A stretch of 35,913 nt of DNA from contig JAGLXC010000372.1 of NCBI GenBank assembly GCA_023133095.1, forward strand, positions 1-35,913, written 5' to 3'. Origin of the DNA: Gammaproteobacteria bacterium (GTDB taxonomy: Bacteria; Pseudomonadota; Gammaproteobacteria; UBA9339). Below, piece by piece: positions 989 through 33,885 of the stretch. A program made the position numbers and the translations under genes. Numbering within the stretch: the stretch's first letter is position 1; every line of letters starts with the position of its first letter. The notes below the pieces were generated by a model. The model had not been told where the DNA came from and did no database searches. It worked only from the letters and a program-made list of their open reading frames with translations.

Positions 989-1023
989 AGTATACTACTT
1001 GTTTTGTTTATCCCTATTGTCAA
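989..1023 (-). promoter_or_regulatory. Late promoter, TTGACA-N23-TATACT, for tape measure
   Basis: TTGACA is at 1023-1018, a spacer of exactly 23 bases follows, and TATACT is at 994-989. The ATG is at 982, 6 bases further on, so the RNA should start at or next to the start codon. The promoter is inside the -1 frame of the tail chaperone, whose stop TAG (997-995) directly abuts the -10. Confidence 0.7.
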
Positions 1024-1446
1024 GCACCCATATTATTTGCCTAATAACCCACTCCGGCTGGGCCATAAATTGCTGGTAAGTCCAACCAGTCTCTAAGAGT
1101 ATTGCCGGTAGGTAGTTACTTACTTGCCGGTGTTTGTCTTTTTTTTTATCTCCTTACAGATAAAAGCATAGTCATCAGCACTAACATCATCAAGTAGTAT
1201 GCCAAGCACACCCTCCTTAATATCATCAATACTCACTACAAAAGTCTCAAGCTCTTTATGTACTTGCTTAGTCATAGCATCTCCGGCCTTGGCCATAACA
1301 GCACCACCATCAGCGATCTCTACACTATTGGTAAGTATCGCATCAATAACCTCACGCTCACGCCCTGTGATCCAGTTGCGTATAATAACACCCTTACCGC
1401 TCTGCGGTAGCTTAACAGTCCTTACATCTGTGTATTCTTTAGTCAT
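995..1446 (-). CDS. Tail assembly chaperone, frameshift product (gpGT-like)
   Basis: A -1 ribosomal shift on A AAA AAG (1144-1138) moves the ribosome from the 108-residue frame into a second open frame. That frame reads on from the slip site through DKHRQVSNYLPAILLETGW to a TAG at 995, for a product of about 150 residues. Production of a short and a frameshifted long chaperone between the tail tube and tape measure genes is the conserved arrangement known from lambda G/GT and many other siphophages. The T-like extension has a Trp/Gln-rich segment (TYQQFMAQPEWVIRQIIW) and would bind the tape measure during tail assembly. Frameshift efficiency cannot be read from sequence. Confidence 0.8.
1120..1446 (-). 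CDS. Tail assembly chaperone, short form (gpG-like)
   Basis: The 108-residue acidic/basic mixed protein lies directly after the major tail protein and before the tape measure gene. Its position, size and frameshift site identify it as the short tail chaperone; the sequence alone would not. It ends EIKKKTNTGK, with the lysines encoded by a run of nine A (1147-1139). The start at 1446 has the AATAGAGTATG context seen at seven other genes of this phage and no Shine-Dalgarno sequence. It is separated from the tail tube gene by only 23 AT-rich bases and is probably transcribed from the promoter ahead of 2607. Confidence 0.8.
   Translation of the reverse strand: MTKEYTDVRTVKLPQSGKGVIIRNWITGREREVIDAILTNSVEIADGGAVMAKAGDAMTKQVHKELETFVVSIDDIKEGVLGILLDDVSADDYAFICKEIKKKTNTGK
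1138..1144 (-). other. Programmed -1 frameshift site A AAA AAG
   Basis: In the frame of the short chaperone, the codons ATA AAA AAA AAG (1149-1138) contain the classic slippery heptamer A AAA AAG within a run of nine A. The -1 frame stays open for a further 47 codons and ends at 995, just before the tape measure gene. I did not identify a convincing downstream stem-loop stimulator. Confidence 0.8.
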
Positions 1447-1469
1447 ACTCTATTTTTTATTATTTATAA

Positions 1470-2444
1470 TTAGTAACTTACTTGCTCATTTTTTACTGTG
1501 ATTGTAACCAGCTTGCTTGCAGTCATATCATAATACCCTGTAAACTCAATAGTTTGCTTAGCTAGCTCGCCTGCGCTGTATTCTGTATTAGCCACTTGTA
1601 TTTTAGCGCGGTGTATATCTATCTCAATCTCTGGGTTATCACTACCGCTACCAATTATTACACCGCTATTAACAGCCTTTATGCGTATTGCCTGCACAGC
1701 ATCGCTAGTAAGCTTATCATGCTGTGTCTTATCTTGGTAGCTCATCTCTATGCTACCAGTAACCTTTATTACACCATTATGTAAATCAATATACTCATCA
1801 CTACCTAAGCACTGATCAGTAATCATACCCTTATCAATGGTAAGGCTTACGCTATCTGCGCATATTGCAGTAGCACCAGTTAGGCCAGCCTGTGTATCAG
1901 CAAACTTTACCTCCATATGCTGTGGTAAAAATGCATTTTCGCTAGTGTATGCCGGTGTAACAGTTGCCTCAACACCTGCCTTAGCTGTAAACTCCGGTGT
2001 CATAAGTAGGTACTGCCCAAGCTGTGCGCTAAACTCAAGTGATGTCATAACACCATAATCATAACTATAACTCTGTACTGGATCATACTTAAATAGTGTC
2101 ATTGTAGGGTGGATGCTGTCATTCTGAAAATCAAACACATGAGTATAAACATCGGTAACTGGGCCAGTAGTGGCAACAGAGCCAAGCCCTACCTTAAGAA
2201 ACTGCCCCACCATCTTATCAGTAACCTTAACCTCTACGCTTGCCTCAGACTTTTTAAGCACTGTAGCATCATCAATACCCTCAGCAAGTACACCTATACT
2301 AGCCTCATCTACAACCTTTTCTACAACATCATTTACACTAATACTTGTTGGCTTAACAAAAAAGTCTGCACTAGCCTCGCCAGTACCACGCACTGCCTCT
2401 ATGGCAAACCCTACTCCTGTTAAATTGCTTATAAACTTGGCCAT
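1470..2444 (-). CDS. Major tail tube protein
   Basis: The 324-residue, Thr/Val/Ser-rich, beta-strand-rich protein sits between the tail completion genes and the frameshifting tail chaperone, the standard place for the tail tube subunit. It begins MAKFISNLTGVGFAIE and has the alternating hydrophobic pattern of tube proteins, ending in a beta-rich segment (TIEFTGYYDMTASKLVTITV). The start at 2444 is one base after the stop of the 53-residue gene upstream (2446), so the two are translationally coupled. Both are served by the late promoter at 2614-2648. Assignment rests on order and composition; no signature motif is diagnostic. Confidence 0.75.
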   Translation of the reverse strand: MAKFISNLTGVGFAIEAVRGTGEASADFFVKPTSISVNDVVEKVVDEASIGVLAEGIDDATVLKKSEASVEVKVTDKMVGQFLKVGLGSVATTGPVTDVYTHVFDFQNDSIHPTMTLFKYDPVQSYSYDYGVMTSLEFSAQLGQYLLMTPEFTAKAGVEATVTPAYTSENAFLPQHMEVKFADTQAGLTGATAICADSVSLTIDKGMITDQCLGSDEYIDLHNGVIKVTGSIEMSYQDKTQHDKLTSDAVQAIRIKAVNSGVIIGSGSDNPEIEIDIHRAKIQVANTEYSAGELAKQTIEFTGYYDMTASKLVTITVKNEQVSY

Positions 2445-2445
2445 A

Positions 2446-2607
2446 TTATTTTACTTTATTATTTTTAATGTCGTTACTTACCTCCTCTTTAGCGATCTTA
2501 GTAGCCTCCTTAAGTGTCTTAGCCATTACAACACGGCCCAGCGTTGGCATAAAGTAGCGTTGCTCGCCACCTTTTTGTATTGCCTTATGTGTTGCATCTT
2601 TAGTCAT
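2446..2607 (-). CDS. Small protein of 53 residues ahead of the tail tube gene
   Basis: This short basic protein begins MTKDATHKAIQKGGEQRYFM and ends in a Lys/Glu helix (TLKEATKIAKEEVSNDIKNN). It has its own late promoter with the ATG 6 bases after the TACAAT hexamer, and its stop is one base from the start of the major tail protein. The well-placed promoter and tight coupling make it a real gene despite its size. Function is not recognised; given its position it may assist tail tube assembly or may simply be the leaderless first cistron that feeds ribosomes to the tail tube gene (inference). Confidence 0.75.
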   Translation of the reverse strand: MTKDATHKAIQKGGEQRYFMPTLGRVVMAKTLKEATKIAKEEVSNDIKNNKVK

Positions 2608-2613
2608 AGTGGT

Positions 2614-2648
2614 ATTGTACAGTTATTTGCTATTAAGTAAAATGTCAA
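2614..2648 (-). promoter_or_regulatory. Late promoter, TTGACA-N23-TACAAT, for tail tube operon
   Basis: TTGACA is at 2648-2643, 23 bases separate it from TACAAT at 2619-2614, and the ATG of the 53-residue gene (2607) follows after 6 bases. The -35 is preceded by AAGCGC directly after the stop of the upstream gene. Confidence 0.7.
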
Positions 2649-2654
2649 GCGCTT

Positions 2655-3107: not shown

Positions 3108-3523
3108 ATGCTTTTTGTTAATTTATTAAGTGTATTCTCAATCGCCTGTGCAAAATGTTTAGTAACATCTCTATGGCTCGCCTTTAGTATACGCCCATAA
3201 AAGTCATTCCTACTAGCAACAAAGTTAGAGTACTCTACTGTACTGCGCACTGATGTGCGTAATGCCAGTGGGTTAGCTCTTAGTGCTGTCATGCCGGTAG
3301 CTATATTGAGCCTAAACATCTGTGCCAACATACCTGTGCGCTGTGCTCTAGGTGTCTTAAACCTAAACAACCCACCCCTCGTACCTCCGTCCGGTGTGCG
3401 CTTACTGATCTCCTTAAGTGCATCAATCATTGCACTATTGAGAGCACCACGCAACTTTTTTGGTGCACTGGTAAAGGCTACCTGTAGCTTATGAGAGTTG
3501 GGTGCATGTATCTCTACAAGCAT
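3104..3523 (-). CDS. HK97 gp10-like head-tail joining / tail completion protein
   Basis: The 139-residue basic protein has an N-terminal beta strand and a helix (RGALNSAMIDALKEISKRTPDG), a central TGMLAQMFRLNI strand region, and a C-terminal amphipathic helix (FAQAIENTLNKL). This pattern, with the helix followed by TP.D.G..R and a loop rich in Arg, is what HK97 gp10 family members show. It lies between the gp6-like connector and the probable tail terminator, overlapping both (10 and 4 bases). It should act at the head-tail interface. Confidence 0.65.
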   Translation of the reverse strand: MLVEIHAPNSHKLQVAFTSAPKKLRGALNSAMIDALKEISKRTPDGGTRGGLFRFKTPRAQRTGMLAQMFRLNIATGMTALRANPLALRTSVRSTVEYSNFVASRNDFYGRILKASHRDVTKHFAQAIENTLNKLTKSI

Positions 3524-4032
3524 ACGCGGTAATTATCTAGTATATCCCAGTCACTATCTAGCAACACCTCATGCCAGCTAGTAGTGCTCGCCTCAAAGCT
3601 TGTAGACTTCTCGCCCTCATGCTCAAGCTTGCGGTACTGGCGTATGACTATACGCTCTATAAGCTCCCTCAGCACCTCCTCTTGGCCACCGCCTACATAT
3701 TCAACCTCAAGGGCATCAAGGCCCTCTAAAAAGCTATATGCGAGCTTACCAGTGCTTAATAAGCGCCATAGTGTTGTATCAGTCTCAGTAATATACTCTG
3801 TACCATCCCAATACCTAATAGTTGTAATGCTGGTTACTGGTGTTTGGTTAAGATATACCGGCCCCTCATCAAAATATTCAGTGTGTGTACCACTCTCATC
3901 AAGCCCCCTAGTAACTATATTGCGTATATGTGCAATGGCACCAGTAATAAGCCCATCAATAACATCATCCCCATCAGGGGTATTGATACTTAGCTTATCT
4001 TTTATCTTTTGTGCCGTTGTGATCTCAGCCAT
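3514..4032 (-). CDS. Head-tail connector (gp6-like adaptor)
   Basis: The 172-residue protein starts MAEITTAQKIKDKLSINTPDGDDVIDGLITGAI and carries the helix-loop-helix with a following IRYWDG.EY segment that marks phage gp6-like head-tail adaptors, which form a ring beneath the portal. The start at 4032 is chosen because it lies exactly 6 bases after the TATACT of a late promoter. A GTG six bases earlier (4038) is less likely because it would sit inside the promoter region. It opens the operon 4032-2655. Confidence 0.75.
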   Translation of the reverse strand: MAEITTAQKIKDKLSINTPDGDDVIDGLITGAIAHIRNIVTRGLDESGTHTEYFDEGPVYLNQTPVTSITTIRYWDGTEYITETDTTLWRLLSTGKLAYSFLEGLDALEVEYVGGGQEEVLRELIERIVIRQYRKLEHEGEKSTSFEASTTSWHEVLLDSDWDILDNYRVCL

Positions 4033-4038
4033 AAGCAC

Positions 4039-4073
4039 AGTATACTACCCATTACATTAAAGTATAATGTCAA
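4039..4073 (-). promoter_or_regulatory. Late promoter, TTGACA-N23-TATACT, for connector operon
   Basis: TTGACA is at 4073-4068, the spacer is 23 bases, TATACT is at 4044-4039, and the ATG begins at 4032 after 6 bases. The -35 starts three bases after the U-tract of an intrinsic terminator, so one unit ends and the next begins almost at the same place. Confidence 0.72.
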
Positions 4074-4126: not shown

Positions 4127-4321
4127 CTATGCTGGCTTTTTTGCATCAGCCTTAGGTGCCTCAACTGGTGCAGGTCTTGCATCAGCCGTACCACCCTTAA
4201 CAAAGTTTGCCACCGCCTTGGCCTGCTCAGCATTAAGCTCTACAGTCTCGCCAACTCGGCCTATCACATTGTCAATAGAAAATGTGCGGATAACCTCGTA
4301 CTCCTTTATGTCTTTTGCCAT
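4127..4321 (-). CDS. Small protein following the major capsid gene
   Basis: The 64-residue protein starts MAKDIKEYEVIRTF, has the motif GRVGETVELNAEQAKAVANFVKGG and ends in an Ala/Pro/Lys tail. The first part reads as a small beta-barrel-like domain (a strand, then G..GE.VEL, then a helix). Comparable small proteins with a Pro/Ala tail often follow capsid genes, but I cannot name a family with confidence. An in-frame TTG at 4333 is a possible alternative start; ATG at 4321 is preferred. An intrinsic terminator follows. Confidence 0.65.
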   Translation of the reverse strand: MAKDIKEYEVIRTFSIDNVIGRVGETVELNAEQAKAVANFVKGGTADARPAPVEAPKADAKKPA

Positions 4322-5650: not shown

Positions 5651-6784
5651 TTATTCTTTAGAGTCTCGTACCTTTTTAGCGTTAAATAGTAAGCTGTTTA
5701 TATCTTTAGCAACACTCTGTACTGCCTTGATTGCCTTGTGCTCTAATACATCATCATCCTCCTCCTCATCTGCATCTTTAGTCTCTCCAAATACATCTTT
5801 AAGTATGTTAAGCACCTCTTTAGTATCACTGCCGGCACTATAAGCATCTATACCCATGCCCTTACCCTCTGCGCTAGCAAGGTCAAGCTTTTTAGTCTTA
5901 GGCTCCTTACCCTTAGCAATAGCAAGTATGATCTCGCCAAACTCTGTAGCCATCTCCTCAAACTCATCAACATTAACACTACTATCCCATAGGTAAGCCT
6001 GTATAAAGGCAAAAAATGCATCGTCAATATCTCTAAACTTCTTGTGCTTAGTCTCCTTATTAAAGTTATCAAGCACTGCGCCCTTTTCTTTAGGCTCATC
6101 TTTATCATCATCCTCTGTAGCCTCAATCTCTTTAAGCTCTGGCTCAGTTGGTGCATCTCCAGTAACAACCGGTGCATCCTCTACTACCTCATCATCCTCA
6201 TCAGTCTCTTGTGTAGTCTCCTTAGTATTAAACTCAAATAGACCTTTTTGTGATAGCTCCATAAGTGCAACAGTATCTATGCCTTTTTCTTGTGCCAAAG
6301 TCAATGCGTTAGGGTTAGCTGGTACTGGTACAACACTGTACTCAAGTAGCTCAGCCTTAGTGATTATACTACCATCATCCTCATCAAACTCTTTAGGTAT
6401 AAAGCCAACACTCACAGTCTTTATAAAGCCATCCTCATGTAGCTTGCGGAGTGTCTGTGCCTTTTCTGTCTCGGCCCAGATGCCCTCACTGATAAGCTTA
6501 GTACCCTCAACATAAGTCTTAGTAGCTTTACCAACTGGCATGCTGTTATAGTCATGTGCAAATAGTACAACACCATTTTTATTAAAGTTAGTTAAGTCCC
6601 AACCAGCCACCCTTACAATCTCGCCTGCGCGGTCTTTAGTCTCATCAGAGATCACAAACTTAAATGTGCCGTTAGTCTCAGCGAGTGCCTTAGTATCTGC
6701 GTTATCAGCAAACTCCTTAAACTCAGCATTGCCGGCCACGGCATCTGCCATCTTGGTTGCCAGCTCTTGTGTAAACTTCTTCAT
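5651..6784 (-). CDS. Prohead protease (HK97/U35 family) with acidic C-terminal extension
   Basis: The 377-residue protein contains RAGEIVRVAGWDL, then VVLFAHDYNSMPVG with the likely catalytic His77, and TVSVGFIP with the likely catalytic Ser125, followed by LLEYSVVPVPANPNAL; this is the prohead protease signature. Residues after about 200 are very acidic (runs of Asp/Glu) and then helical, and look like an attached scaffolding-type segment. It cleaves the capsid N-terminal domain during maturation. The start at 6784 is chosen because it lies 7 bases after the -10 of a late promoter; an upstream in-frame ATG at 6826 falls inside the -35. Confidence 0.9.
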   Translation of the reverse strand: MKKFTQELATKMADAVAGNAEFKEFADNADTKALAETNGTFKFVISDETKDRAGEIVRVAGWDLTNFNKNGVVLFAHDYNSMPVGKATKTYVEGTKLISEGIWAETEKAQTLRKLHEDGFIKTVSVGFIPKEFDEDDGSIITKAELLEYSVVPVPANPNALTLAQEKGIDTVALMELSQKGLFEFNTKETTQETDEDDEVVEDAPVVTGDAPTEPELKEIEATEDDDKDEPKEKGAVLDNFNKETKHKKFRDIDDAFFAFIQAYLWDSSVNVDEFEEMATEFGEIILAIAKGKEPKTKKLDLASAEGKGMGIDAYSAGSDTKEVLNILKDVFGETKDADEEEDDDVLEHKAIKAVQSVAKDINSLLFNAKKVRDSKE

Positions 6785-6791
6785 ATTGTGT

Positions 6792-6826
6792 ATATTACTA
6801 TTATTGCTTATAAATAAAAATGTCAA
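6792..6826 (-). promoter_or_regulatory. Late promoter, TTGACA-N23-TAATAT, for protease-capsid unit
   Basis: TTGACA is at 6826-6821, the spacer is 23 bases, TAATAT is at 6797-6792, and the ATG follows after 7 bases. The sequence GCGC just upstream of TTGACA matches the promoter at 2614-2648. Confidence 0.7.
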
Positions 6827-8123: not shown

Positions 8124-8486
8124 TTAAATCTTACTATGTATAATATCCTGTGTCTTATCAAGCTTGCGTAATATGGCTATACTTGCCTCCTGTGCAGACA
8201 TCATTTTTTCGTGGTCATCGCCATGCTTTTCAAATTGCTTTAATATACCAGTAGTTACCTGCTTATGCTCAGCAGTTACATCTCGCAATGATTGTGCAAA
8301 TGTCTGTTGGCTCTTTTCTTGCTTAGTATTATGGTCTGCCGTCATCTCTCTAACAAGCGTAAAATGTTTATCAACAATTTTAGGCACATACTTAACCAAT
8401 GCCCACCCAAACCCAAGTAACAGTATTATAAACAATGCAGATACTACGCCAGCCTCAGATATTAGTGCTAATACAAAGTTCTCCAT
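8124..8486 (-). CDS. Holin-like membrane protein with coiled-coil tail
   Basis: The 120-residue protein has one strong membrane segment near the N-terminus (VVSALFIILLLGFGWALVKYV, about residues 14-34), then a charged helical tail with coiled-coil character to the end. One-span proteins with such a tail lie next to endolysins in many phages and act as holins or holin partners. It leads the lysis unit (holin candidate, 26-residue peptide, DUF1353, amidase) behind its own late promoter. The ATG at 8486 follows the -10 after 8 bases. An alternative is a tail-associated membrane protein. Confidence 0.6.
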   Translation of the reverse strand: MENFVLALISEAGVVSALFIILLLGFGWALVKYVPKIVDKHFTLVREMTADHNTKQEKSQQTFAQSLRDVTAEHKQVTTGILKQFEKHGDDHEKMMSAQEASIAILRKLDKTQDIIHSKI

Positions 8487-8494: not shown

Positions 8495-8529
8495 ATTCTA
8501 CTAGCTTTAATGATTACTGAAAATGTCAA
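8495..8529 (-). promoter_or_regulatory. Late promoter, TTGACA-N23-TAGAAT, for lysis unit
   Basis: TTGACA is at 8529-8524, the spacer is 23 bases, TAGAAT is at 8500-8495, and the ATG of the holin-like gene follows after 8 bases. The -35 lies 4 bases downstream of the stop codon of the kelch-repeat gene. Confidence 0.65.
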
Positions 8530-14527: not shown

Positions 14528-14562
14528 AGTATAATGCACTATGTGCCTGACAAAAATGTCAA
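14528..14562 (-). promoter_or_regulatory. Late promoter, TTGACA-N23-TATACT, for fibre unit
   Basis: TTGACA is at 14562-14557, the spacer is 23 bases, TATACT is at 14533-14528, and the ATG follows after 6 bases. It begins a unit of about 6 kb reaching to the kelch-repeat gene. Confidence 0.72.
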
Positions 14563-16981: not shown

Positions 16982-17016
16982 ATTGTACCTTTAATGCTAA
17001 TAAATAATAATGTCAA
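16982..17016 (-). promoter_or_regulatory. Late promoter, TTGACA-N23-TACAAT, for portal unit
   Basis: TTGACA is at 17016-17011, the spacer is 23 bases, TACAAT is at 16987-16982, and the portal ATG (16975) follows after 6 bases. The TGA stop codon of the large terminase gene (17015-17013) is part of the TTGACA hexamer. Confidence 0.72.
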
Positions 17017-18638
17017 GTAATGCGAGGCTCTACATCATACACGCTACCCTTGGCCTGCCAAGCTATTATAACAGCCATAAGCAAGTCAAAGTGCCTCGTG
17101 GTAGCCTTAGAGCCCATAGCATCCACCTTGGTGTACTTAACCAACTCGTTAAATAACTTCTCATCATAAAACTCTACATCGCCACGCTTGAGTGCCAACT
17201 TAAAATCTCCCAGAGCCTTGAGCTTGCTAGGCGCTGTGGTTATAAAGCCAAACTTAGGTGTCTCATTTTCTGTGTCTGCATTTTCCATGCGGTATATGTA
17301 CTCATGGTAGTAGTGGCTCTTAAGGGTACTTATAACTGCATGGCCAGTGTTGTTACGCTCCGGTGCCACCAAGGCATTGTTATAGTAGCGCCCCCAGTCT
17401 CCCAGCAATAGGCCAAAGTCATCCGGTGCAATGTGCGCATTGTCATAGCACGCAACAATACGGCTCACAATGTCCACCTCTAGTACAGCACCAGTATTAC
17501 TATCGCGCCCTATACCCTCACTGGTATCGGCCCCTACAACATACACAAAGTCCTCACGCTTAGGCCGGTAGTATCTTAGGCCACTGTCACTCACTCCGGC
17601 ATCCTTAGCCTTTTCTGGCTTAAAGCACTTAGCTATATGATCTTTATTAAAAAATGCATCCCCAAACTTCTCTGGTTGGCACAAATACTCTTGCTCATAA
17701 AATGGCTCGCCCTCGCTAATCTCCTCAAGACTAACCTTGTGCCTGTCTAGTGGTCTACTTAAGTTGGCCCTGCGCGCCTCCTCTTTAGTGTGTGTATATT
17801 TATCTGGCCACAGCAAATTACCATCAGCATCAATCACTGGCTGTATAGTAACCTTAACCCCCTTACTCTCTACAACCTTGTGCACATTGCCGGCCTCGCT
17901 AAGATAGTTACCCAAGTACAGCACCTTTTTGCGTGCCTGTGCCATACCACTTATCGTTGCCCTCATCAGCCTGTATATCTTTTCTGTGATCACTGGGCTG
18001 TCTAGTGTTATATTATTCTCAAAGTCATCCATAATAACCAAGTCCGGCCTCTTTTCTTGCTCAGAGCTACCACGCGTGGTTGTAAGCATGTTAAATGACT
18101 CCAAGCGTATGCCGTGCTTGGTAGTAAATGTGCTCATGGTCTGTTGGCGCTTGGTGTAGTCTAGCGCATCCCTACTAAACTGGTTGCCATACACTCGTAT
18201 GATCTCCGGCTCCAAGAGCATGTTATACACATCGGTAGTAAACTGTGATGCCTTAGTAGCACTCTGCACAATGCCATACTCAAATTGCTCATACAAGATA
18301 GCGTACACCACCTCTGGCTTGGCCGTGGCAGTCTTACCATTCTCTCGCCAACCTACCCAAGCAAACTCTCCCTTGCCCTCTCCAAACATCTTGGTCATAT
18401 CTCGGCCCATGTCTGCATGCATCTCACTGTCATAGTACTTATAAAACTTACTGAAAAACCATTTTTTCCAAATGGCCTTAGTCCAGTCATCATATGCAAG
18501 ATCCCCAGTAGGGGATAAGAGCATCTTAATCTCATGCGGTGTACTCCGCTCAAGCCTGCGTATAATCACATCATAACCGGCAGAGCGCGCCAGTCTCCGT
18601 GTAGTGCGTACTTGCTTAGTCTTTTTTGCCATAATCAT
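17013..18638 (-). CDS. Terminase large subunit
   Basis: The packaging motor ATPase and nuclease, 541 residues. GWRENGKT at 96-103 is the Walker A motif in the form used by terminases, LVIMDD at 200-205 is Walker B, and YLGNYLSEAGNV is in the position of the coupling motif. The C-terminal RNase H-like nuclease starts near VVGADTSEGIGRDSN, with the first catalytic Asp in GAD. Start 18638 (or 18632, MAKKTK) overlaps the small subunit gene by about 20 bases. The stop codon lies inside the next promoter. Confidence 0.93.
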   Translation of the reverse strand: MIMAKKTKQVRTTRRLARSAGYDVIIRRLERSTPHEIKMLLSPTGDLAYDDWTKAIWKKWFFSKFYKYYDSEMHADMGRDMTKMFGEGKGEFAWVGWRENGKTATAKPEVVYAILYEQFEYGIVQSATKASQFTTDVYNMLLEPEIIRVYGNQFSRDALDYTKRQQTMSTFTTKHGIRLESFNMLTTTRGSSEQEKRPDLVIMDDFENNITLDSPVITEKIYRLMRATISGMAQARKKVLYLGNYLSEAGNVHKVVESKGVKVTIQPVIDADGNLLWPDKYTHTKEEARRANLSRPLDRHKVSLEEISEGEPFYEQEYLCQPEKFGDAFFNKDHIAKCFKPEKAKDAGVSDSGLRYYRPKREDFVYVVGADTSEGIGRDSNTGAVLEVDIVSRIVACYDNAHIAPDDFGLLLGDWGRYYNNALVAPERNNTGHAVISTLKSHYYHEYIYRMENADTENETPKFGFITTAPSKLKALGDFKLALKRGDVEFYDEKLFNELVKYTKVDAMGSKATTRHFDLLMAVIIAWQAKGSVYDVEPRIT

Positions 18639-19233
18639 CTGGGTGTAATAATGTGGCAAATGCCCTGCGCTTTTCTATCATATCCTCCTCACTTAACATA
18701 AAGGCCTCATCCTCAGTACCATCTACTCCAGCCTTACCCTCTACATGCTTAAGATAGTTAAGTGCAAACTCTGGGCTCTTATACTCGGCAGTCAACCCAT
18801 AGTGCACCATCCTGCGTGCCTGTAGGCGCATAGTAGCTTTCCACAGTGCGCGCATCTCTCTCAGCTCCGGTACCCTCAGTAAGTAGTTACGCAAAGCATC
18901 GTGGCTAATGCCGGCATTAAGGCAGGCCTCAGCATCACTACCATTAAGCTCCCATACTCCCTTGAGCTTATGGATCACTCCCACTTGGCTCATCCCATTA
19001 AATACCTTTTGGCCACCATTCTTTACCTTAGCTTTTTTGATGCGCTCAATACCTCTCTGGTAATTCAATAACACAATATGCTCTACACTCGCATCTATCT
19101 CTTTACCCTCCAACTTCTTAATATCATGCTTGAGCTGTTTAACCATCGCCTTGTACTCCCTAAGCGCCTTAGTCTCTTTAACAACAAGAGCCTTGGTAGG
19201 CTTTTTATTTTTTTGTGATGTTGCCTTGGCCAT
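18616..19233 (-). CDS. Terminase small subunit (probable)
   Basis: The 205-residue protein has a basic N-terminus with a coiled-coil-like segment (ALREYKAMVKQLKHDIKKLEG), a helix-turn-helix candidate (ACLNAGISHDALRNYLLRVP) and a C-terminal acidic segment. HTH plus oligomerisation helices and its place directly before the large terminase support a DNA-recognising small subunit. It overlaps neighbours by 29 and 23 bases. The sequence is divergent, so the name rests largely on position. Confidence 0.7.
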   Translation of the reverse strand: MAKATSQKNKKPTKALVVKETKALREYKAMVKQLKHDIKKLEGKEIDASVEHIVLLNYQRGIERIKKAKVKNGGQKVFNGMSQVGVIHKLKGVWELNGSDAEACLNAGISHDALRNYLLRVPELREMRALWKATMRLQARRMVHYGLTAEYKSPEFALNYLKHVEGKAGVDGTEDEAFMLSEEDMIEKRRAFATLLHPDDYGKKD

Positions 19234-19414
19234 TGTTAACTTGTTTTCTTATACTACTCTCTACTATATTACAACACTCCTCACATATAGGTGCAATGAT
19301 CTTAACCCCTGTGGGTAGTATCGTTACCACCTCCCTTATAGTAGGTGTGCCACAACTGCACTGCTTGTGCAAAAATGGCGATAGCATTGACTCTTTAGCA
19401 TCTACTACCACCAT
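19205..19414 (-). CDS. Small zinc-ribbon protein
   Basis: The 69-residue protein MVVVDAKESMLSPFLHKQ has CSCG (near 20-23) and CEEC (near 45-48), the two knuckles of a zinc ribbon, with a short beta hairpin between them. It overlaps both the sigma-region-4-like gene (20 bases) and the small terminase gene (29 bases). An in-frame TTG at 19420 is an alternative start. Function unknown; being wedged between a transcription-factor-like gene and the terminase, it could be a partner in late transcription (inference). Confidence 0.6.
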   Translation of the reverse strand: MVVVDAKESMLSPFLHKQCSCGTPTIREVVTILPTGVKIIAPICEECCNIVESSIRKQVNNGQGNITKK

Positions 19415-19706
19415 ACTCAAGTCTTTTTAATACCTTACTTAATACCTGCTCAACTCTCTGCCTTGTTACTATAGTGTCTTTTACACCATTGCGCATCAAA
19501 GCATCTGCTATACGCCTCATACTTACTGGTGGCACTGTTATGTCCATAGTGATGCGCGCTTGCAGTATAGCGTACTCCTCAGTTGTTAGCTCATCTCTTA
19601 TACTGGCCAATTTTGAGCGTACTACATCTCTGTTGCGTTGAAAAGATCTAAATGACTCTATCATGTCTTGGTAGTCTTTTACAAACTCTTTACCATAAAT
19701 ACTCAT
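19395..19706 (-). CDS. Sigma-70 region 4-like / ArpU-type regulator, candidate late transcription factor
   Basis: The 103-residue protein has a helical N-terminus (about 1-38), then LTTEEYAILQARI, SMRRIADALMRNG and TRQRVEQVLSKVLKRL (residues 81-96). The order and spacing match sigma-70 region 4: an LT..E..VL..R helix, an I.EAL turn, and a recognition helix of the R.RV.Q...K.L..L type. Region 4 is the part of sigma that reads the -35 TTGACA. It is adjacent to the terminase genes, where Gram-positive phages keep late regulators of the ArpU/RinA kind. It overlaps the methyltransferase stop by 4 bases. Similarity is from visual pattern only. Confidence 0.5.
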   Translation of the reverse strand: MSIYGKEFVKDYQDMIESFRSFQRNRDVVRSKLASIRDELTTEEYAILQARITMDITVPPVSMRRIADALMRNGVKDTIVTRQRVEQVLSKVLKRLEYGGSRC

Positions 19707-20902: not shown

Positions 20903-20935
20903 AATATATAAAAATTGCTATGTGCGAGGCCCAAC

Positions 20936-20960
20936 AAAAATAGACACTTAAAAGTGTCCG
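20936..20960 (-). terminator. Attenuator-like terminator ahead of the methyltransferase
   Basis: On the minus strand GGACACTT-TT-AAGTGTC forms a 6-7 bp stem followed by TATTTTTG. It starts 2-4 bases after the stop of a 12-codon leader frame and lies about 35 bases before the methyltransferase ATG, so some transcripts should end before that gene. Confidence 0.6.
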
Positions 20961-20961
20961 C

Positions 20962-21000
20962 TTATAATATCCTGCCTTTTGTATATCTACCCTCGCCCAT
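20962..21000 (-). CDS. 12-codon leader peptide before the methyltransferase terminator
   Basis: MGEGRYTKGRIL is encoded by a frame whose ATG (21000) is exactly 6 bases after a TATAAT hexamer, the same geometry as the leaderless late genes. It ends right at the base of the terminator stem. A ribosome on this frame would affect folding of the hairpin. No codon bias such as a run of one amino acid is seen. It may be a true attenuator peptide or a chance frame. Confidence 0.4.
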   Translation of the reverse strand: MGEGRYTKGRIL

Positions 21001-21006
21001 TAGCAT

Positions 21007-21015
21007 ATTATACCA
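21007..21015 (-). promoter_or_regulatory. Extended -10 promoter TGGTATAAT
   Basis: TGGTATAAT on the minus strand is a perfect extended -10 element. No good -35 is seen, but GTGCAAG and a DnaA-box module (21031-21052) lie just upstream. The RNA would start about 21001, at the leader-peptide ATG, and serve the methyltransferase, the sigma-like gene and possibly the terminase genes. Confidence 0.55.
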
Positions 21016-21030
21016 CACTTGCACTAATGA

Positions 21031-21052
21031 GTTATCCACAGTTGGTGTTGCT
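21031..21052 (+). repeat. DnaA-box module copy 1: GTTATCCACAG-N5-GTTGCT
   Basis: This is one of four copies of GTTATCCACAG, five variable bases, GTTGC. It contains the consensus DnaA box TTATCCACA. It is the only copy in plus-strand orientation and the only one ending GTTGCT rather than GTTGCA. It overlaps the stop of the 40-residue gene. Confidence 0.65.
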
Positions 21053-23343: not shown

Positions 23344-23733
23344 TTAAAAAGTAGTTACCAACCTCTTAATAATATCGTGATCACTCAAGACAAATGCAAA
23401 ACAAGTCTGCAAGTCTCTTAAGTCTGCCTCGTAACATCTCTCAAATGCCTCCTTTTCATCATCCCCACTACCCACTAAGGTAATAAAAAATGGCTTAAAA
23501 AATACTGTTGCCAATACCTTGCCCCCCTTAACTATGCGGTACTCATTTTTTAGATCCCCACCCCTATCTGTGATCTTTACAAAGCTCTCTTTTTTAGCTC
23601 TAGTAGCCTTGGCCTGTGCACTTAAACAACTCTTGCAAGTATTGCGCACCTTGCCGTTATCACTTCTAACTCCAAAACATGAGATGTCGCGCTTGCTCTT
23701 ACACTTATCGCAAACCTTTTTTTTATTTTTCAT
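23344..23733 (-). CDS. Zinc-finger protein related to phage HNH-associated fingers
   Basis: The 129-residue protein has CDKCKSKRDISCFGVRSDN and CKSC, the four-cysteine finger (CxxC...CxxC with a DIS.F motif) that many phage HNH endonucleases carry at their N-terminus, but no H-N-H residues follow. The C-terminal half is a beta-rich segment (YRIVKGGKVLATVFFKPF) and a helix. It may be a DNA-binding remnant or an independent protein. It opens a transcription unit behind an early promoter and has the AATAGAGTATG start. Confidence 0.6.
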   Translation of the reverse strand: MKNKKKVCDKCKSKRDISCFGVRSDNGKVRNTCKSCLSAQAKATRAKKESFVKITDRGGDLKNEYRIVKGGKVLATVFFKPFFITLVGSGDDEKEAFERCYEADLRDLQTCFAFVLSDHDIIKRLVTTF

Positions 23734-23787
23734 ACTCTATTATTTTAATAATTTATAATATGTGTGCTTGCCCTCGCTCACAAGTGT

Positions 23788-23816
23788 ATTATATATCAAT
23801 ATCTATATTTATGCAA
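23788..23816 (-). promoter_or_regulatory. Early promoter, TTGCAT-N17-TATAAT
   Basis: TTGCAT (23816-23811) and a perfect TATAAT (23793-23788) are separated by 17 bases. A DnaA box sits 7 bases upstream of the -35. The leader of about 50 bases contains GAGCGAGGGCAAGC and an AT-rich tract, similar to the leader of the 28755 gene. Confidence 0.7.
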
Positions 23817-24006
23817 CCGCCACTGTGGATAACTTTTTAGTATGACTATCTAAAATATACCAAGCCTCAGCATCAAGCTCTCCCCACTCATTACGCATAA
23901 ACTCACTCTGCTGGTACTGGTAATGCCGGTAGTGCTCGGCCTCTAATCTGTCGCACTCTATCTGGTCAAGTAGTCTCTGTATAGTGGCCCCCATGTCATT
24001 AGTCAT
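23809..24006 (-). CDS. Hypothetical protein (65 residues)
   Basis: MTNDMGATIQRLLDQIECDR starts a Glu/Tyr/His-rich helical protein. The ATG at 24006 overlaps the helicase stop by 8 bases. Its 3' end doubles as the DnaA-box module upstream of the next unit. No family is recognised; it may be a helicase accessory protein because of its coupling to that gene. Confidence 0.55.
   Translation of the reverse strand: MTNDMGATIQRLLDQIECDRLEAEHYRHYQYQQSEFMRNEWGELDAEAWYILDSHTKKLSTVAVA
23812..23833 (-). repeat. DnaA-box module copy 2: GTTATCCACAG-N5-GTTGCA
   Basis: On the minus strand GTTATCCACAG, five bases, GTTGCA; the last part is also the -35 of the early promoter. The module overlaps the last codons of the 23809-24006 gene. 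Confidence 0.7.
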
Positions 24007-25828: not shown

Positions 25829-25978
25829 TTATTCTTTAATAAATGCGTAATAAACCATACCTATTACTGATGCTATATATACAACCCAGATCAAAATGCC
25901 ATCATTGCCATTATTAACCCTAACTACTTGTGCTAGATATATAATACTCCAAAATAACTGCATCTTTAATTTACTCAT
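25829..25978 (-). CDS. Small membrane protein (49 residues)
   Basis: MSKLKMQLFWSIIYLAQVVR, a polar NNGNDG turn, then ILIWVVYIASVIGMVYYAFI: two short hydrophobic helices joined by a hairpin turn. The ATG overlaps the stop of the HTH gene by 4 bases (ATGA), which supports translation. Function unknown. Confidence 0.6.
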   Translation of the reverse strand: MSKLKMQLFWSIIYLAQVVRVNNGNDGILIWVVYIASVIGMVYYAFIKE

Positions 25979-26370
25979 AACTCACAATCATTAGCGTGGT
26001 GCGCAATAGTAGCCCTATGCTTGCCACTGTGCACACCCTTAGTAAATCGCTCTATATCCACAACACTGTAGCCTTGGCCTATCATCTCGCACACAAGCCC
26101 CTTAACCACGCCCACAGTGGTGCTGGTGCGGTTGTTAGGCAGTGCCTCCCACAATACCTTATACCTCACATCCCATAGCTCCTCTTTACGGATCCGCTCA
26201 ACCGCATTGTGCTTATCAATGGCCCTAGGGTTACGCGCCCTGCCAAGCCTCTTGTATATAGCCTGCGTGGTCATGCCGTGCTTTTCAGCTAGCATCTTTA
26301 CAACACCCTTAGTGCCCTTGGCCACTCCGGCAAAATACTCTCGCAATAAACTCTCATTTTCTATCATCAT
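25975..26370 (-). CDS. Helix-turn-helix DNA-binding protein
   Basis: The 131-residue basic protein has an HTH in KGVVKMLAEKHGMTTQAIYKRLGRA (about 20-45 overall), of the type that reads DNA as a dimer, and a second helical domain containing VCEMIGQGYSVVDIERFTKG, which may be a second HTH. It may be an early regulator. It overlaps both neighbours by 4 bases and so is not autonomous. Confidence 0.6.
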   Translation of the reverse strand: MMIENESLLREYFAGVAKGTKGVVKMLAEKHGMTTQAIYKRLGRARNPRAIDKHNAVERIRKEELWDVRYKVLWEALPNNRTSTTVGVVKGLVCEMIGQGYSVVDIERFTKGVHSGKHRATIAHHANDCEL

Positions 26371-28077: not shown

Positions 28078-28755
28078 TTATAGTAAATCAGCTTGTAAGT
28101 CTTTTAGCTCCGGCTCGGTCATGGGGTACTTGCCAGCAACAAGGTCTGCACCAAGTTGCTTTTTTTTCTCATCACTGAGCCTCGGCAAGCGCTTTTTTAA
28201 TGCAACATAGTGCTCACTACCCTTAACCTCTGCCTCTTGGCTATCATCAGCAACATGCTCACTGTCATCTGCTGGGCCCATCTCCTCAGCCGGCGTACCC
28301 TCGTACCCTGCAAGTTTCATAACCCAACCAAGTAGCAATCGGTATGCCTTACCCACTGCGCGTGTCTGGGCCATTGATGCAATAGCATACTCATCAAAAC
28401 TACTTTTCATGCGCTCGCTATTACTACATAATGCAAAACCATAACCAACAACATTGCCACTTTTTGAGTGCACAAGCTCAACCTCAGCTTTATACTTGTA
28501 CTCTTTTTTAAGTGGGTCGCCAACACTCTCTATATTTATAACCTTGGCAGTAAGTCCAAGTAGGCCACCGGCAAATTGCCAGCCCTCAACTAATACATAG
28601 TTGTTGCCTTTAATATTCTCATATAGCTTATTCTCAACTATATGCTTTTTAAGCACTCCGGCCATCTTAACCATCTGGCTCGGTTGCTCTAAGTTGTAAC
28701 GCTTAATAGGGTTACTTGCCACTTTATTTGCTACTCCATTTTTATTTTTACTCAT
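28078..28755 (-). CDS. Single-strand annealing protein (ERF/Sak-like, probable)
   Basis: The 225-residue protein has a core of predicted beta strands (EYKYKAEVELVHSKSGNVVG) and the helix IASMAQTRAVGKAYRLLLGW, matching the A.TRA.GRALR helix that marks ERF/Rad52-like phage annealing proteins, then a flexible acidic linker and a C-terminal SDEKKKQLGADL helix. It would pair complementary single strands made by the nuclease encoded next. The start has a TAAGAGTATG context and follows an early promoter and a leader of about 45 bases. Confidence 0.7.
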   Translation of the reverse strand: MSKNKNGVANKVASNPIKRYNLEQPSQMVKMAGVLKKHIVENKLYENIKGNNYVLVEGWQFAGGLLGLTAKVINIESVGDPLKKEYKYKAEVELVHSKSGNVVGYGFALCSNSERMKSSFDEYAIASMAQTRAVGKAYRLLLGWVMKLAGYEGTPAEEMGPADDSEHVADDSQEAEVKGSEHYVALKKRLPRLSDEKKKQLGADLVAGKYPMTEPELKDLQADLL

Positions 28756-28806
28756 ACTCTTATACTCTTAATTTATAATCGCTTGCGCCCTCGCTTGCTT
28801 ATGTAC

Positions 28807-28835
28807 ACTATAGCATTGTGCAACCACTTGTGCAA
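28807..28835 (-). promoter_or_regulatory. Early promoter, TTGCAC-N17-TATAGT
   Basis: TTGCAC (28835-28830) and TATAGT (28812-28807) are separated by 17 bases. GGTTGCACAA is repeated in tandem, two bases apart, within the promoter. A DnaA box is 7 bases upstream of the -35. Confidence 0.65.
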
Positions 28836-28852
28836 CCATACCTGTGGATAAC
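28831..28852 (-). repeat. DnaA-box module copy 3: GTTATCCACAG-N5-GTTGCA
   Basis: On the minus strand GTTATCCACAG, five bases, GTTGCA. It lies immediately downstream of the stop of the HNH gene and overlaps the -35 of the annealing-protein promoter. Confidence 0.7.
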
Positions 28853-30818: not shown

Positions 30819-30821
30819 ACT

Positions 30822-31601: not shown

Positions 31602-31624
31602 ACTCTATTTTTTAATTATGCTAT

Positions 31625-31679: not shown

Positions 31680-31692
31680 TAATAACTTCTGT

Positions 31693-31701: not shown

Positions 31702-31708
31702 CAAGACC

Positions 31709-31730
31709 TGCAACTTGCACTGTGGATAAC
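31709..31730 (-). repeat. DnaA-box module copy 4: GTTATCCACAG-N5-GTTGCA
   Basis: On the minus strand GTTATCCACAG, TGCAA, GTTGCA, preceded by an A-run as in copies 2 and 3. It lies directly upstream of the extended -10 promoter of the replication initiator gene. Confidence 0.7.
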
Positions 31731-31987
31731 TTTTGTATAACCTGTGTACCATTTTCCTAGTGTCGGGCATATGGTATCTCGGCTAAATCTCGGTAGGGTA
31801 GTGGCTACTTAATCACTCCCCTGCATAAGTAAATAGTCTTACTTGTATAGTACAGTGCACAAGTAGCCTTAAAGGTAGTATACACCGCTTAACTAAGCCA
31901 TATTAGTATACAATTACTTGCACTCCCCCACCCTCTTTATTGGCCATATAAGACCTTTTTGGGTACACACCCCAAGAGGGTAGGGCA

Positions 31988-32443
31988 CTACTCTAGCTTA
32001 ACCTCTGTACCCATCTCTACACCCAACTCTCTAAGCGCATCACTGGCCTCGCGGTGCCAATTTATAAATTGCGTGTCCACTTCTCTCTGTTTATATCTTG
32101 CCCCACTACTCATTAACCTACGCATATTTTGCTTTATAAACTCTTTAGCAACATCATACTTGTGGATCTCCCCATGCTTTTCTATATTGCAGTATGCGCA
32201 CAATCTTGTGGCATTAAATAGGCTATCTGTATACGGCTCCTTACGGCTTATAGCGTGATGCAAGTGCTCTGCCATACCACCACACCTCTGGCACCTCTCA
32301 TACTCGTTACAGTGCCTCAGTAACTCTACTCTATCAAACTCATGGCTCATGCACATAGTATACCACATGAAAAAACAGCCGGAGTATGTCGGCTGTTTTT
32401 TCTTGCTAAGTAGATACCTAGCGAGGGCTGTGCCTAGTGGCAC
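31988..32443 (-). CDS. HNH endonuclease with a terminator in its 5' region
   Basis: The HNH domain begins MSHEFDRVELLRHCNEY (ATG 32350) and has CQRC, HLHH, RLCAYCN, a zinc-supported HNH fold of 120 residues with a C-terminal helical part. The same frame is open back to a GTG at 32443 that is exactly 6 bases after the -10 of a late promoter, adding 31 residues. An intrinsic terminator (32401-32370) lies inside this 5' part. A second TATACT lies 6 bases before ATG 32350. So either GTG is the real start with the terminator read through by coupled translation, or the gene starts at 32350. Confidence 0.75.
   Translation of the reverse strand: MPLGTALARYLLSKKKQPTYSGCFFMWYTMCMSHEFDRVELLRHCNEYERCQRCGGMAEHLHHAISRKEPYTDSLFNATRLCAYCNIEKHGEIHKYDVAKEFIKQNMRRLMSSGARYKQREVDTQFINWHREASDALRELGVEMGTEVKLE
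32370..32401 (-). terminator. Strong bidirectional intrinsic terminator
   Basis: AAAAAACAGCCG and CGGCTGTTTTTT form a perfect 12-base-pair stem with an 8-base loop and T-runs in both directions. It lies only about 40-70 bases downstream of a late promoter start, so it makes a short RNA or acts as an attenuator for the HNH gene. Confidence 0.9.
32402..32443 (-). ncRNA. Possible short structured RNA between late promoter and terminator
   Basis: From the predicted start near 32443 to the terminator the RNA would be about 75 bases. It contains the hairpin GTGCC-ACTA-GGCAC and a second stem CTCGCTA/TAGCAAG with one mismatch, followed by the terminator stem. Three successive stems and a strong promoter resemble a small phage RNA; an HNH leader is the other reading. 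Confidence 0.4.
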
Positions 32444-32449
32444 GCCAAT

Positions 32450-32484
32450 ATAGTATCATAGCTAGGCTTGGTGGCAAATGTCAA
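32450..32484 (-). promoter_or_regulatory. Late promoter, TTGACA-N23-TACTAT, after the distal tail genes
   Basis: TTGACA is at 32484-32479, the spacer is 23 bases, TACTAT is at 32455-32450, and 6 bases later there is a GTG (32443). The -35 directly follows the TAG stop of the preceding gene. Confidence 0.65.
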
Positions 32485-33393
32485 CTACCCCAATACCTTA
32501 ACTTGAAACTTCCAGTATGCATCATCTGTATCGCCTGTGTTAGTTATCCTAAATGTAAAGCCGGTATCAGTAACGCTTACTACTGTCATATTAAATGTAC
32601 CACCTACAACATCTCTACTCCAACCTAACAATGCGCTTGTTGAGTCTGACATTGTAGTATTATTATAGTTTATAGTCCAACCTTGATATACGCCATTCAG
32701 CCAATATGATGGTGCAAAGTTTACTGATGTACTTAAGTATGTATTATGTACCGCGCCTATAGCACCACTATTTATTCGCCCATTTACCTCAATAAGTGTA
32801 GGCCTAAACCCACATACTATATCTATATCATGTGTACCGCTAGTGCCTGTTATACTCTGGTTACCGTCCTCTATACCTATATATGCCTCTGCTTGGTTTT
32901 TCTCTATTAAAATCTCAGTTGTACTAACTGCAATACCCACACGCATCTCGTATGTACCAACTGATGTGCCTATTGTCTTATCATCTTGTACATAATATGG
33001 TGCACCTTTTGTTAGGCCTGTAAACCCTGCCACAATACCTGAAAACTGTATTGTTATTGCTCCAGCATCTATAGCGTTTGTTGTTGCAAAACCTCTAAAT
33101 GCTAGTTTGGCAGTATCATTACCGTCACAAGCATACCACTCATCATCTGTATTATCTATATAGCAAGCAACCGGCAGTGTAGCTCCGTTTATAGTCTCTC
33201 CGGCAGTCTGCTCATCAATAGCATCTGGCCTAGTTGCCAGCCCTGCGTATAGTGTGTCCTCTGTAACAAATACATTACCAGTAGCCGGAGTACCAGTACC
33301 AGCAAGCGCATCCTTTTCGTCTGTAGTAGGAGTACGGTCATTGATCTCCGTTATATCACTCGCAAGTATCTCTGATCCTATAGCTATTGTCAT
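32485..33393 (-). CDS. Distal tail / fibre-like protein (302 residues)
   Basis: MTIAIGSEILASDITEINDR is followed by a beta-rich, Gly/Thr-rich body with a C-terminal domain containing SYWLNGVYQGWTINYNNTTM and a final TFRITNTGDTDDAYWKFQVK. Composition and position after the tail hub fit a minor tail or fibre protein, possibly interacting with the host surface. Its start lies one base after the upstream stop. No named family is recognised. Confidence 0.6.
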   Translation of the reverse strand: MTIAIGSEILASDITEINDRTPTTDEKDALAGTGTPATGNVFVTEDTLYAGLATRPDAIDEQTAGETINGATLPVACYIDNTDDEWYACDGNDTAKLAFRGFATTNAIDAGAITIQFSGIVAGFTGLTKGAPYYVQDDKTIGTSVGTYEMRVGIAVSTTEILIEKNQAEAYIGIEDGNQSITGTSGTHDIDIVCGFRPTLIEVNGRINSGAIGAVHNTYLSTSVNFAPSYWLNGVYQGWTINYNNTTMSDSTSALLGWSRDVVGGTFNMTVVSVTDTGFTFRITNTGDTDDAYWKFQVKVLG

Positions 33394-33394
33394 G

Positions 33395-33844
33395 TTATGC
33401 GTTTATTACCTCTACCTCATAATCTATTGTAAGGCTCTCGCTACCAGTCTTAGTTATAGGTAGCTCAGCATTTTCAGTGCTTATACGGCTAAATAGTGTG
33501 CCACTATCGGCAGTCAATGAGCCACCACTAAAGCTACCAACCTCATTTATTGTACCAACTGCCTCAGCAAGCCCAAAAAATACACTGATGTACTTCTTAT
33601 TACCACTTGTGCTACTACTGGCCACAGCCTTGCGCTCAGTCTCATTAACAAGTGTTGTATCTCCGGCAACAACAGCAGTGGCACTATCTCCAAGTGCAAC
33701 ATAATCAAGCACTAATGAGCTGGCAAATAAGGCCAAGCCAGTATCTACAACCCTATTTTTAATGGTATGTGAGTGCGTAACATTACCCTTAGCATCTCTA
33801 AATGTAAGTGTATATATACCTCGTAATTTTATATTATCAATCAT
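33395..33844 (-). CDS. Minor tail structural protein (149 residues)
   Basis: MIDNIKLRGIYTLTFRDAKG begins a beta-rich protein with the segment ALFASSLVLDYVALGDSAT, seen in small tail-tip-associated proteins of several siphophages, and ends TIDYEVEVINA. It opens the unit 33844-32485 behind its own late promoter, with the ATG 6 bases after the -10. Confidence 0.6.
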   Translation of the reverse strand: MIDNIKLRGIYTLTFRDAKGNVTHSHTIKNRVVDTGLALFASSLVLDYVALGDSATAVVAGDTTLVNETERKAVASSSTSGNKKYISVFFGLAEAVGTINEVGSFSGGSLTADSGTLFSRISTENAELPITKTGSESLTIDYEVEVINA

Positions 33845-33850
33845 AGTGAT

Positions 33851-33885
33851 ATATTAGCATATTAAACAGTTATGTATATTGTCAA
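33851..33885 (-). promoter_or_regulatory. Late promoter, TTGACA-N23-TAATAT, for distal tail unit
   Basis: TTGACA is at 33885-33880, the spacer is 23 bases, TAATAT is at 33856-33851, and the ATG (33844) follows after 6 bases. The TGA stop of the tail hub gene (33884-33882) lies inside TTGACA, as at the portal promoter. Confidence 0.72.

Follow-up and report, generated by a model that had tools for sequence, protein, structure and literature searches.

Spacer length is among the firmest rules of bacterial promoters. The -10 and -35 functions can lie on separate proteins, as in Bacillus SigO-RsoA and T4 gp55-gp33 (gp33 does not read DNA), and to our knowledge neither system has a stretched spacer. 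During T4 middle transcription a phage protein takes over the -35 contact, leaving the -10 to host sigma region 2 (PMC2988021), and Gp39 of Thermus phage P23-45 alters the use of sigma region 4 in favour of late promoters (PMC7403470). In leaderless promoters of Deinococcus-Thermus and Actinobacteria, roughly six bases separate TANNNT from the start codon (PMC3160421, PMC12340547). When a -35 element was added to such a leaderless TANNNT promoter in Deinococcus, it enhanced activity at 17 bp from the -10 and had no effect at 22 bp (PMC12340547). Searching the literature for phage late promoters with unusual spacing, we came across no precedent, and a full-text search on promoters in Patescibacteria phages found little.

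Results

The window, by which we mean the whole 35,913-nt stretch of DNA analysed, contains nine sites at which TTGACA and TANNNT are separated by exactly 23 nt, all on the minus strand, as a sequence-only reading of this DNA had described. Both hexamers of a canonical sigma-70 promoter (TTGACA-like and TATAAT-like) are therefore present in 9/9 cases, but at 23 bp instead of the canonical 16-18 bp. The -10 box lies about six bases 5' of the start codon, as in leaderless promoters (6, 6, 6, 7, 8, 6, 6, 6 and 6 nt; the longer gaps precede 6784 and 8486, respectively), and the start codon is ATG at eight of the sites and GTG at 32443.

Nine of the twelve minus-strand TTGACA hexamers in the window are followed by N23-TANNNT and a start codon 6-8 bases on (binomial ~2e-12; ~8e-11 corrected for 40 spacers). 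An exact-match scan over spacers 10-35 made 23 stand out, with nine minus-strand sites and at most two at any other spacer; on the plus strand the same scan returned no site at spacer 23. In 200 dinucleotide shuffles of the window with all 26 spacers counted, spacer 23 yielded a mean of 0.34 and a maximum of 2 sites, and the best count across the 26 spacers never exceeded 4. Allowing one mismatch gave 17 matches against 12.8 expected, i.e., chance-level additions only.

Only late genes have an N23 site ahead of them, and all nine sites open late operons. TTGACA-N23-TATACT occurs at 989..1023, 6 nt before the tape measure gene, whose ATG is at 982 and whose reading frame continues across the contig ends (982 to 1 and on from 35913 to 35360, minus strand); at 4039..4073, 6 nt before the ATG of 3514-4032 (head-tail adaptor); and at 14528..14562, 6 nt before the ATG of 13604-14521, in an operon with a fibre and a 1003-aa Kelch protein. 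The TACAAT version is found at 2614..2648, 6 nt before the ATG of 2446-2607, with the minor tail protein gene 1470-2444 next, and at 16982..17016, 6 nt before the ATG of 14918-16975 (portal fused to a Mu gpF-like domain). TAATAT is the -10 box at 6792..6826, 7 nt before the ATG of 5651-6784 (head maturation protease, followed by the major capsid protein), and at 33851..33885, 6 nt before the ATG of 33395-33844 (tail fibre-like). The remaining two sites are TTGACA-N23-TAGAAT at 8495..8529, 8 nt before the ATG of 8124-8486, and TTGACA-N23-TACTAT at 32450..32484, 6 nt before the GTG of 31988-32443. The last precedes an HNH endonuclease gene, as the reading had said in setting it apart from the structural and lysis units; this exception is mild, because HNH endonucleases are often packaging proteins. 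The gene list used provided the upstream stop for eight of the nine sites, and in seven of these TTGACA starts -4 to +6 nt from it. At two sites the upstream TGA is embedded within TTGACA (16982-17016, where it ends TerL, and 33851-33885).

We conclude that the nine sites are late promoters of one phage. The 23-bp spacing is a feature of the late class, because the early promoters in the same genome resemble TTGCAY-N17-TATARTR and have leaders. Examples are TTATCCACA-N7-TTGCAT-N17-TATAAT (23788..23832, minus strand) and TTATCCACA-N7-TTGCAC-N17-TATAGT (28807..28851, minus strand), each with a leader of ~50 nt. A probable middle promoter with an extended -10, TGTGGTATAAT, and an inverted TTATCCACA (21007..21040, minus strand) is weaker than the other early promoters. 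It lies ahead of an operon encoding a C5 (cytosine) methyltransferase (19703-20902), a sigma-70 region 4-like protein of 103 aa (19395..19706, minus strand), a small Cys-rich protein (19205..19420, minus strand), the presumed small terminase subunit (18616..19233, minus strand) and, as the last gene, the terminase large subunit (17013..18659, minus strand), which has no N23 promoter of its own. The Cys-rich protein overlaps the region 4-like gene, looks zinc-ribbon-like by eye, has no family match and is a possible partner of the region 4-like protein. The small terminase assignment follows from position, directly downstream of the regulator genes, and from a weak match to a protein in L262.

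The window (~36 kb) is a phage genome that closes into a circle. Its host probably belongs to the ultra-small Patescibacteria, and the contig seems to have been wrongly binned into a gammaproteobacterial metagenome-assembled genome (MAG): the traceable relatives of the phage lie in Patescibacteria genomes, and TerL matches were found in 39/380 Patescibacteria, 6/396 Bacteroidota and 2/144 relatives of the MAG (one being the MAG itself). Bacteroidota, considered because of the Shine-Dalgarno-free starts, were rejected as host on the rarity of these matches. An archaeal host, prompted by the lack of an SSU rRNA or sigma region 3 match in the MAG, was rejected since TFIIB is absent and the genes look gammaproteobacterial. 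TGA recoding was ruled out, as TGA is the stop in 10/51 listed genes.

Shine-Dalgarno sites precede only 2/35 phage genes. Together with the 6-base gap, this indirectly supports the claim that the late mRNAs are leaderless, but leaderless starts are probably a habit of the host clade and not an invention of the phage. In Patescibacteria, the commonest distance of -10 boxes from ATG is six bases, Shine-Dalgarno sites are few, and -35 boxes, where present, lie at 16-18. The nine phage promoters also suggest that expression without leaders or Shine-Dalgarno sites is widespread in this phylum.

The late promoters might be served by the host's polymerase in unchanged form, or by an alternative sigma of the host, either with a 23-bp spacer that is normal in the host or with a leaderless -10 that suffices while TTGACA is unimportant. 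Many leaderless bacterial promoters do need just a -10 (PMC12340547, PMC3160421), and leaderless -10 boxes are frequent in Patescibacteria. We nevertheless regard this explanation as improbable. All nine sites preserve TTGACA and its distance without exception, so both matter; among 66 leaderless-like Patescibacteria promoters a -35 match lay at 16-18 in 8/11 cases and never at 23; and TTGACA-TANNNT pairs in 743 kb of Patescibacteria sequence peaked at spacer 17 (22 sites), not at 23 (7 sites). The phage's own early promoters also use 17, and the N23 pattern is not enriched in the MAG. In the data examined, the 23-base spacing alone is phage-specific.

In the search among relatives that the sequence-only reading had proposed, the five true relatives found (contigs, 25-50% identity) contain no N23 promoters and no sigma region 4 HMM match above threshold, so that comparative co-variation of promoters and gene consists of joint absence only. 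Neither IMG/VR, queried with portal, fibre, TerL, minor tail, protease, MCP, the 19395 protein and the promoter pattern, nor GTDB yielded a close true relative; IMG/VR fibre matches belonged to unrelated phages, and promoter-pattern scans returned single sites at chance level only. L134 has an ordinary TTGACA-N17-TATAAT with a leaderless ATG, L213 is a bacterial chromosome and L177 a restriction-modification contig.

The reading had also invoked a phage-specific or modified polymerase. The part of this that is supported is a phage-specific late promoter class needing more than ordinary holoenzyme. The product of the 19395 gene, to which the reading had pointed, scores as an isolated sigma region 4; a phage RNA polymerase, a full sigma factor or a sigma region 2 domain was not recognised in scans of all but a few small ORFs. 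Across 354 ORFs of the window, the 19395 protein alone scores with a custom region 4 HMM (13.7 bits; next 2.6), a score that 0/2000 shuffles reached. In NCBIfam it matches the RpoD C-terminal domain best (E 0.0036, far below the model cut-off); two further RpoD models match, and all NCBIfam alignments fall on region 4. Pfam region 4 models gave no match even at E 1, and a phmmer search of PDB sequences yielded no meaningful match. Aligned with E. coli RpoD region 4 under BLOSUM62, the protein scored 58 against a shuffle maximum of 51 (n=2000). The recognition-helix pattern T-R-x-R-x-x-Q is kept (TRQRVEQ aligned to TRERIRQ, the -35-contact residues), with two substitutions in region 4.2 (E585 to Q, R588 to E). 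The protein is predicted to be all-helical with five helices, although the AlphaFold model is poor (pLDDT 57). With this model, the PDB entry of best Foldseek probability was T. aquaticus sigmaA region 4 on -35 DNA (TM 0.53, E 2.7), every Foldseek E-value being >1; a BFVD fold search gave no significant match, with a putative phage sigma factor among the best TM-scores. The apparent homology to sigma-70 region 4 is weak, yet the tests agree in pointing to it.

Alternatively, some other phage activator could bind TTGACA, such as an orphan protein or the HTH protein 25975-26370, and work from near -41 in a class II-like manner; the -35 likeness of TTGACA would then be partly coincidence and the 19395 protein would have another role. 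Several orphan early and middle genes are present, the 25975-26370 protein has a weak HTH signal, and a site centred near -40 is a usual class II activator position. Base conservation also runs beyond TTGACA, as in a longer operator, with C preceding it at 7/9 sites, T two bases past it at 9/9, and a further T and A downstream. However, an exact consensus -35 hexamer occurs at 9/9 sites, the TTGACA site is not palindromic, and it is the region 4-like gene that sits at the regulator position. The 25975 protein resembles region 4 over a short stretch only (hhalign P 0.065 versus 0.00027 for the 19395 protein). We therefore consider a different activator unlikely, if a serious contender.

Far less probable still is a spacer reshaped by a MerR-like or DNA-bending phage protein, or by the phage cytosine methyltransferase, so that ordinary sigma reaches both boxes. 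MerR-type activators reshape 19-20 bp spacers, and the operon of the region 4-like gene does include the C5 methyltransferase. Against this, no MerR-like protein was found, no palindrome is common to the nine spacers, and 6 extra bp amount to over half a turn, which goes beyond known MerR cases.

Discussion

One model, towards which we lean slightly, can accommodate what is observed: a promoter class of fixed spacing that is confined to late operons, a genome lacking Shine-Dalgarno sites, and a 19395 protein that resembles region 4. In this model the 19395 protein would read TTGACA, host sigma region 2 would read TANNNT, and the late mRNAs would be leaderless. To melt TANNNT, host RNA polymerase would rely on host sigma region 2, just as it does at leaderless promoters of the host itself. 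RNA would start at the A of the start codon or at most two bases away, and late mRNAs would therefore be leaderless. Because a -35 at 23 bp should be out of reach for ordinary holoenzyme, recruitment would depend on the 19395-19706 protein, a stand-alone region 4-like domain predicted to bind TTGACA at -41 to -36 and to dock on polymerase, either at host sigma region 4 or at the beta flap. At 23 bp, 6 bp more than 17, the spacer places TTGACA directly upstream of the host region 4 position, where TTWT is found, which suggests side-by-side binding. Made from a middle operon that ends in terminase, the protein would in turn switch on the portal, capsid, tail and HNH operons. Leaderless RNA ends, TTGACA binding, docking and timing are what we infer from sequence, as no relative shares the architecture.

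The fullest version of this model, in which a free-standing phage sigma region 4 shares a tandem -35 site with host region 4 at its side, thereby enables the 23-bp spacer and controls nine leaderless late operons in a Patescibacteria phage, is tentative, and we would sooner doubt it than assert it. If true, nine natural promoters that all have a 23-bp spacer, together with a region 4-like gene to match, would mean that one small protein can uncouple -10 and -35 reading, providing a compact orthogonal promoter system and pointing to how Patescibacteria phages control their genes.

Known systems share parts of this arrangement. As in leaderless TANNNT promoters elsewhere, the -10 lies about six bases before the start codon, but those promoters usually lack a -35, and one placed 17 bp away helps whereas one at 22 bp does not. 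The position of the 19395 gene, just upstream of terminase, matches known phage late regulators. RinA/ArpU/Ltr of Gram-positive phages are likewise small proteins (here 103 aa) with genes adjoining terminase (here 18616-19233 and 17013-18659, downstream), but they control a single late promoter by way of direct repeats between about -107 and -32, whereas nine promoters here have one TTGACA each; Pfam, PHROGs and NCBIfam gave no match of the 19395 protein to these families. The proposed replacement of the -35 contact by a phage protein while host region 2 reads the -10 parallels T4 AsiA/MotA. There, however, the MotA box lies ~12 bp from the -10 and is not TTGACA-like, while here the -35 consensus itself is used at 23 bp and the phage protein resembles sigma region 4; AsiA/MotA homologues were not detected in Pfam/PHROGs scans of the phage proteins. 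Gp39 and other region 4 remodellers also change the use of sigma region 4 for late promoters, as we propose here, but Gp39 abolishes -35 use in favour of an extended -10, whereas this phage keeps a -35-like box. Finally, two-part sigma factors divide -10 and -35 reading between proteins as our model does, except that the -10 part here would be the host's own sigma. The proposed system would be a further form of phage sigma appropriation.

Nine late promoters with a 23-base spacer

The sequence-only reading had described nine apparently leaderless late promoters with a fixed spacer. Rereading and recounting these sites confirmed TTGACA, exactly 23 bases and TANNNT in all nine; both the sites and the genes downstream of them are on the minus strand. 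The start codon follows TANNNT after 6 bases, except at 6784 (7 bases) and 8486 (8 bases). Nine of the 12 minus-strand TTGACA hexamers in the window are of this kind, and the plus strand of the window has no TTGACA-N23-TANNNT. The earlier reading had considered chance unlikely. A variable-spacer scan of the window (10 to 35 bases) found no spacer other than 23 more than twice, and 200 dinucleotide shuffles gave a mean count of 0.34 at spacer 23 (maximum 2). A binomial estimate based on the local TANNNT frequency was ~8e-11 after correction for 40 spacers. The class is sharp, since one-mismatch versions of the motif occur only at chance level. The base before TTGACA is C in seven of the nine promoters, and a T two bases past the hexamer is invariant. 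The gene list used contains the upstream stop for eight sites; TTGACA starts within a few bases of it at seven of these, and at two late promoters the stop is the TGA inside TTGACA itself.

In transcription order, the late promoters precede the portal gene, a fibre-Kelch operon, a tail-chaperone operon, the protease and capsid genes, the adaptor, the minor tail protein, the tape measure and hub, a fibre gene and an HNH gene.

Genome organization and early promoters

The tape measure frame (511-aa protein) begins at 982, leaves the contig at its left end and resumes in frame from 35913 to 35360; the 35.9-kb contig is therefore a complete phage genome, closed as a circle. The circle closes without overlap between the contig ends. 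All recognised phage genes lie on one strand and use standard stop codons. The families found comprise the terminase large subunit, a portal fused to a Mu gpF-like domain, a head protease and an HK97-type capsid (Phage_capsid); a head-tail adaptor, minor tail protein, hub and HNH were also found, as were a helicase, DnaD-like loader, HD hydrolase and cytosine methyltransferase. One late protein (8534-11545, minus; 1003 aa) has many Kelch repeats (Pfam E 2.3e-79), an unusual feature in a protein of a phage virion or fibre operon. A small unlisted ORF (4127-4321, minus; MAKDIKEYEVIRTF...) lies between the capsid and adaptor genes, and upstream of it (4364 region) are the extended -10 TGTGTTATACT and a hairpin.

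Two early promoters (23790-23832 and 28809-28851, minus) read TTATCCACA-N7-TTGCAY-N17-TATARTR, with TTATCCACA exactly 30 nt upstream of the -10 and leaders of ~50 nt; with up to three mismatches, 0.1 occurrences are expected by chance. The polymerase met by the phage therefore seems to read promoters with the ordinary 17-bp spacer, and the 23-base spacing is limited to late promoters. A third TTATCCACA lies ahead of the first early gene (31721-31729) and an inverted copy ahead of the methyltransferase operon (21032-21040). The element resembles a DnaA box and may link early transcription either to DnaA or to replication initiation. Early and middle leaders (23733-23808, 28755-28812 and 20902-21012) share a GCGAGGG motif just past the presumed start (GAGCGAGGGCAAGC, AAGCGAGGGCGCAAGC, GGGCGAGGGTAG).

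Translation starts, relatives and presumed host

A Shine-Dalgarno core precedes only two of 35 non-leaderless phage starts; the rate is 14% at randomly chosen ATGs, and 20 of 43 source-MAG genes have one. A occupies position -3 at 29 of the 35 phage starts, similar to the A-rich starts known in Bacteroidetes (PMC6847099). Many inner genes start one to three bases past the preceding stop (TAACATG, TAATATG, TAGAGTATG), which would suit termination-reinitiation. The sequence AAATAGAGT recurs immediately 5' of ATG at non-leaderless starts (e.g., 23733, 23037, 28755, 29961, 30818, 31601, 1446 and 12420).

The MAG contigs examined are short (mostly 2-9 kb) and their genes look gammaproteobacterial on reading; the 36-kb phage contig has higher GC and was probably misbinned. 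Terminase matches occurred in 39 of 380 genomes from the phylum of a Candidatus Gottesmanbacteria (Patescibacteria) locus, L189, in 6 of 396 from the Maribacter phylum, and in two of 144 from the MAG's own relatives, the MAG itself being one. True relatives were found on contigs of five of these Patescibacteria-side genomes (G542:C11, G602:C23, G586:C2, G1206:C61 and G1267:C6), with two to seven genes in common at 25-50% identity and partly the same gene order. The N23 promoters are absent from these five contigs, and no relative carrying them was identified.

Shine-Dalgarno sites were found neither in three of the relative contigs checked nor in 29 long genes sampled from the G542, G586 and G602 assemblies outside these contigs. 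Across 802 genes from the Patescibacteria side, TATAAT-like boxes are most frequent at a distance of six bases from ATG (32 versus ~6 elsewhere), which suggests that Patescibacteria commonly have leaderless genes (loci L244-L296). Of the 11 -35 matches at such leaderless-like promoters, eight lie at 16-18 bases and none at 23. Leaderless starts therefore fit the presumed host, and the stretched spacer does not derive from it.

A candidate reader of the late promoters

The minus-strand gene at 19395-19706, in an operon ending with terminase, encodes 103 residues (C-terminal part LTTEEYAILQARI...VTRQRVEQVLSKVLKRLE). Among curated models it matches those for RpoD best, with the alignments falling on region 4 (E 0.0036, 0.041 and 0.048). 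Against a region 4 profile of seven sequences, of which the E. coli sequence was verified with PDB, it is the only clear scorer among 354 window frames (13.7 bits, next 2.6) and exceeds all 2000 shuffles. Pairwise alignment to E. coli RpoD region 4 scored 58 (shuffle maximum 51), and hhalign gave P 0.00027. The low-confidence AlphaFold model is all-helical, and the PDB chain with its top Foldseek probability is region 4 of T. aquaticus sigmaA bound to -35 DNA (TM 0.53, E 2.7). The recognition-helix T, R, R and Q are retained. Because these tests, each weak alone, combine with the gene position, we consider the protein likely to be sigma4-like. In region 4.2, E585 is changed to Q and R588 to E, which might alter specificity. 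No region 4 profile hit above threshold was found on the five relative contigs, of which those of G1206 and G1267 are without the terminase region.

Once the -10 is occupied, host region 4 would cover six bases at a distance of 17 bp upstream. At the late promoters these read TTWTNN and TTGACA adjoins their upstream side, 23 being 17 plus one hexamer. In the simplest model, the phage protein would bind TTGACA beside host region 4, on roughly the opposite helix face, and would thereby hold the polymerase at the promoter; alternatively, it may displace host region 4. Base counts and the Deinococcus experiment cited below apart, we infer all of this, including the need for a helper. Such a need is supported by leaderless TANNNT promoters of Deinococcus, where a -35 element enhances activity at 17 bp and gives no enhancement at 22 bp (PMC12340547).
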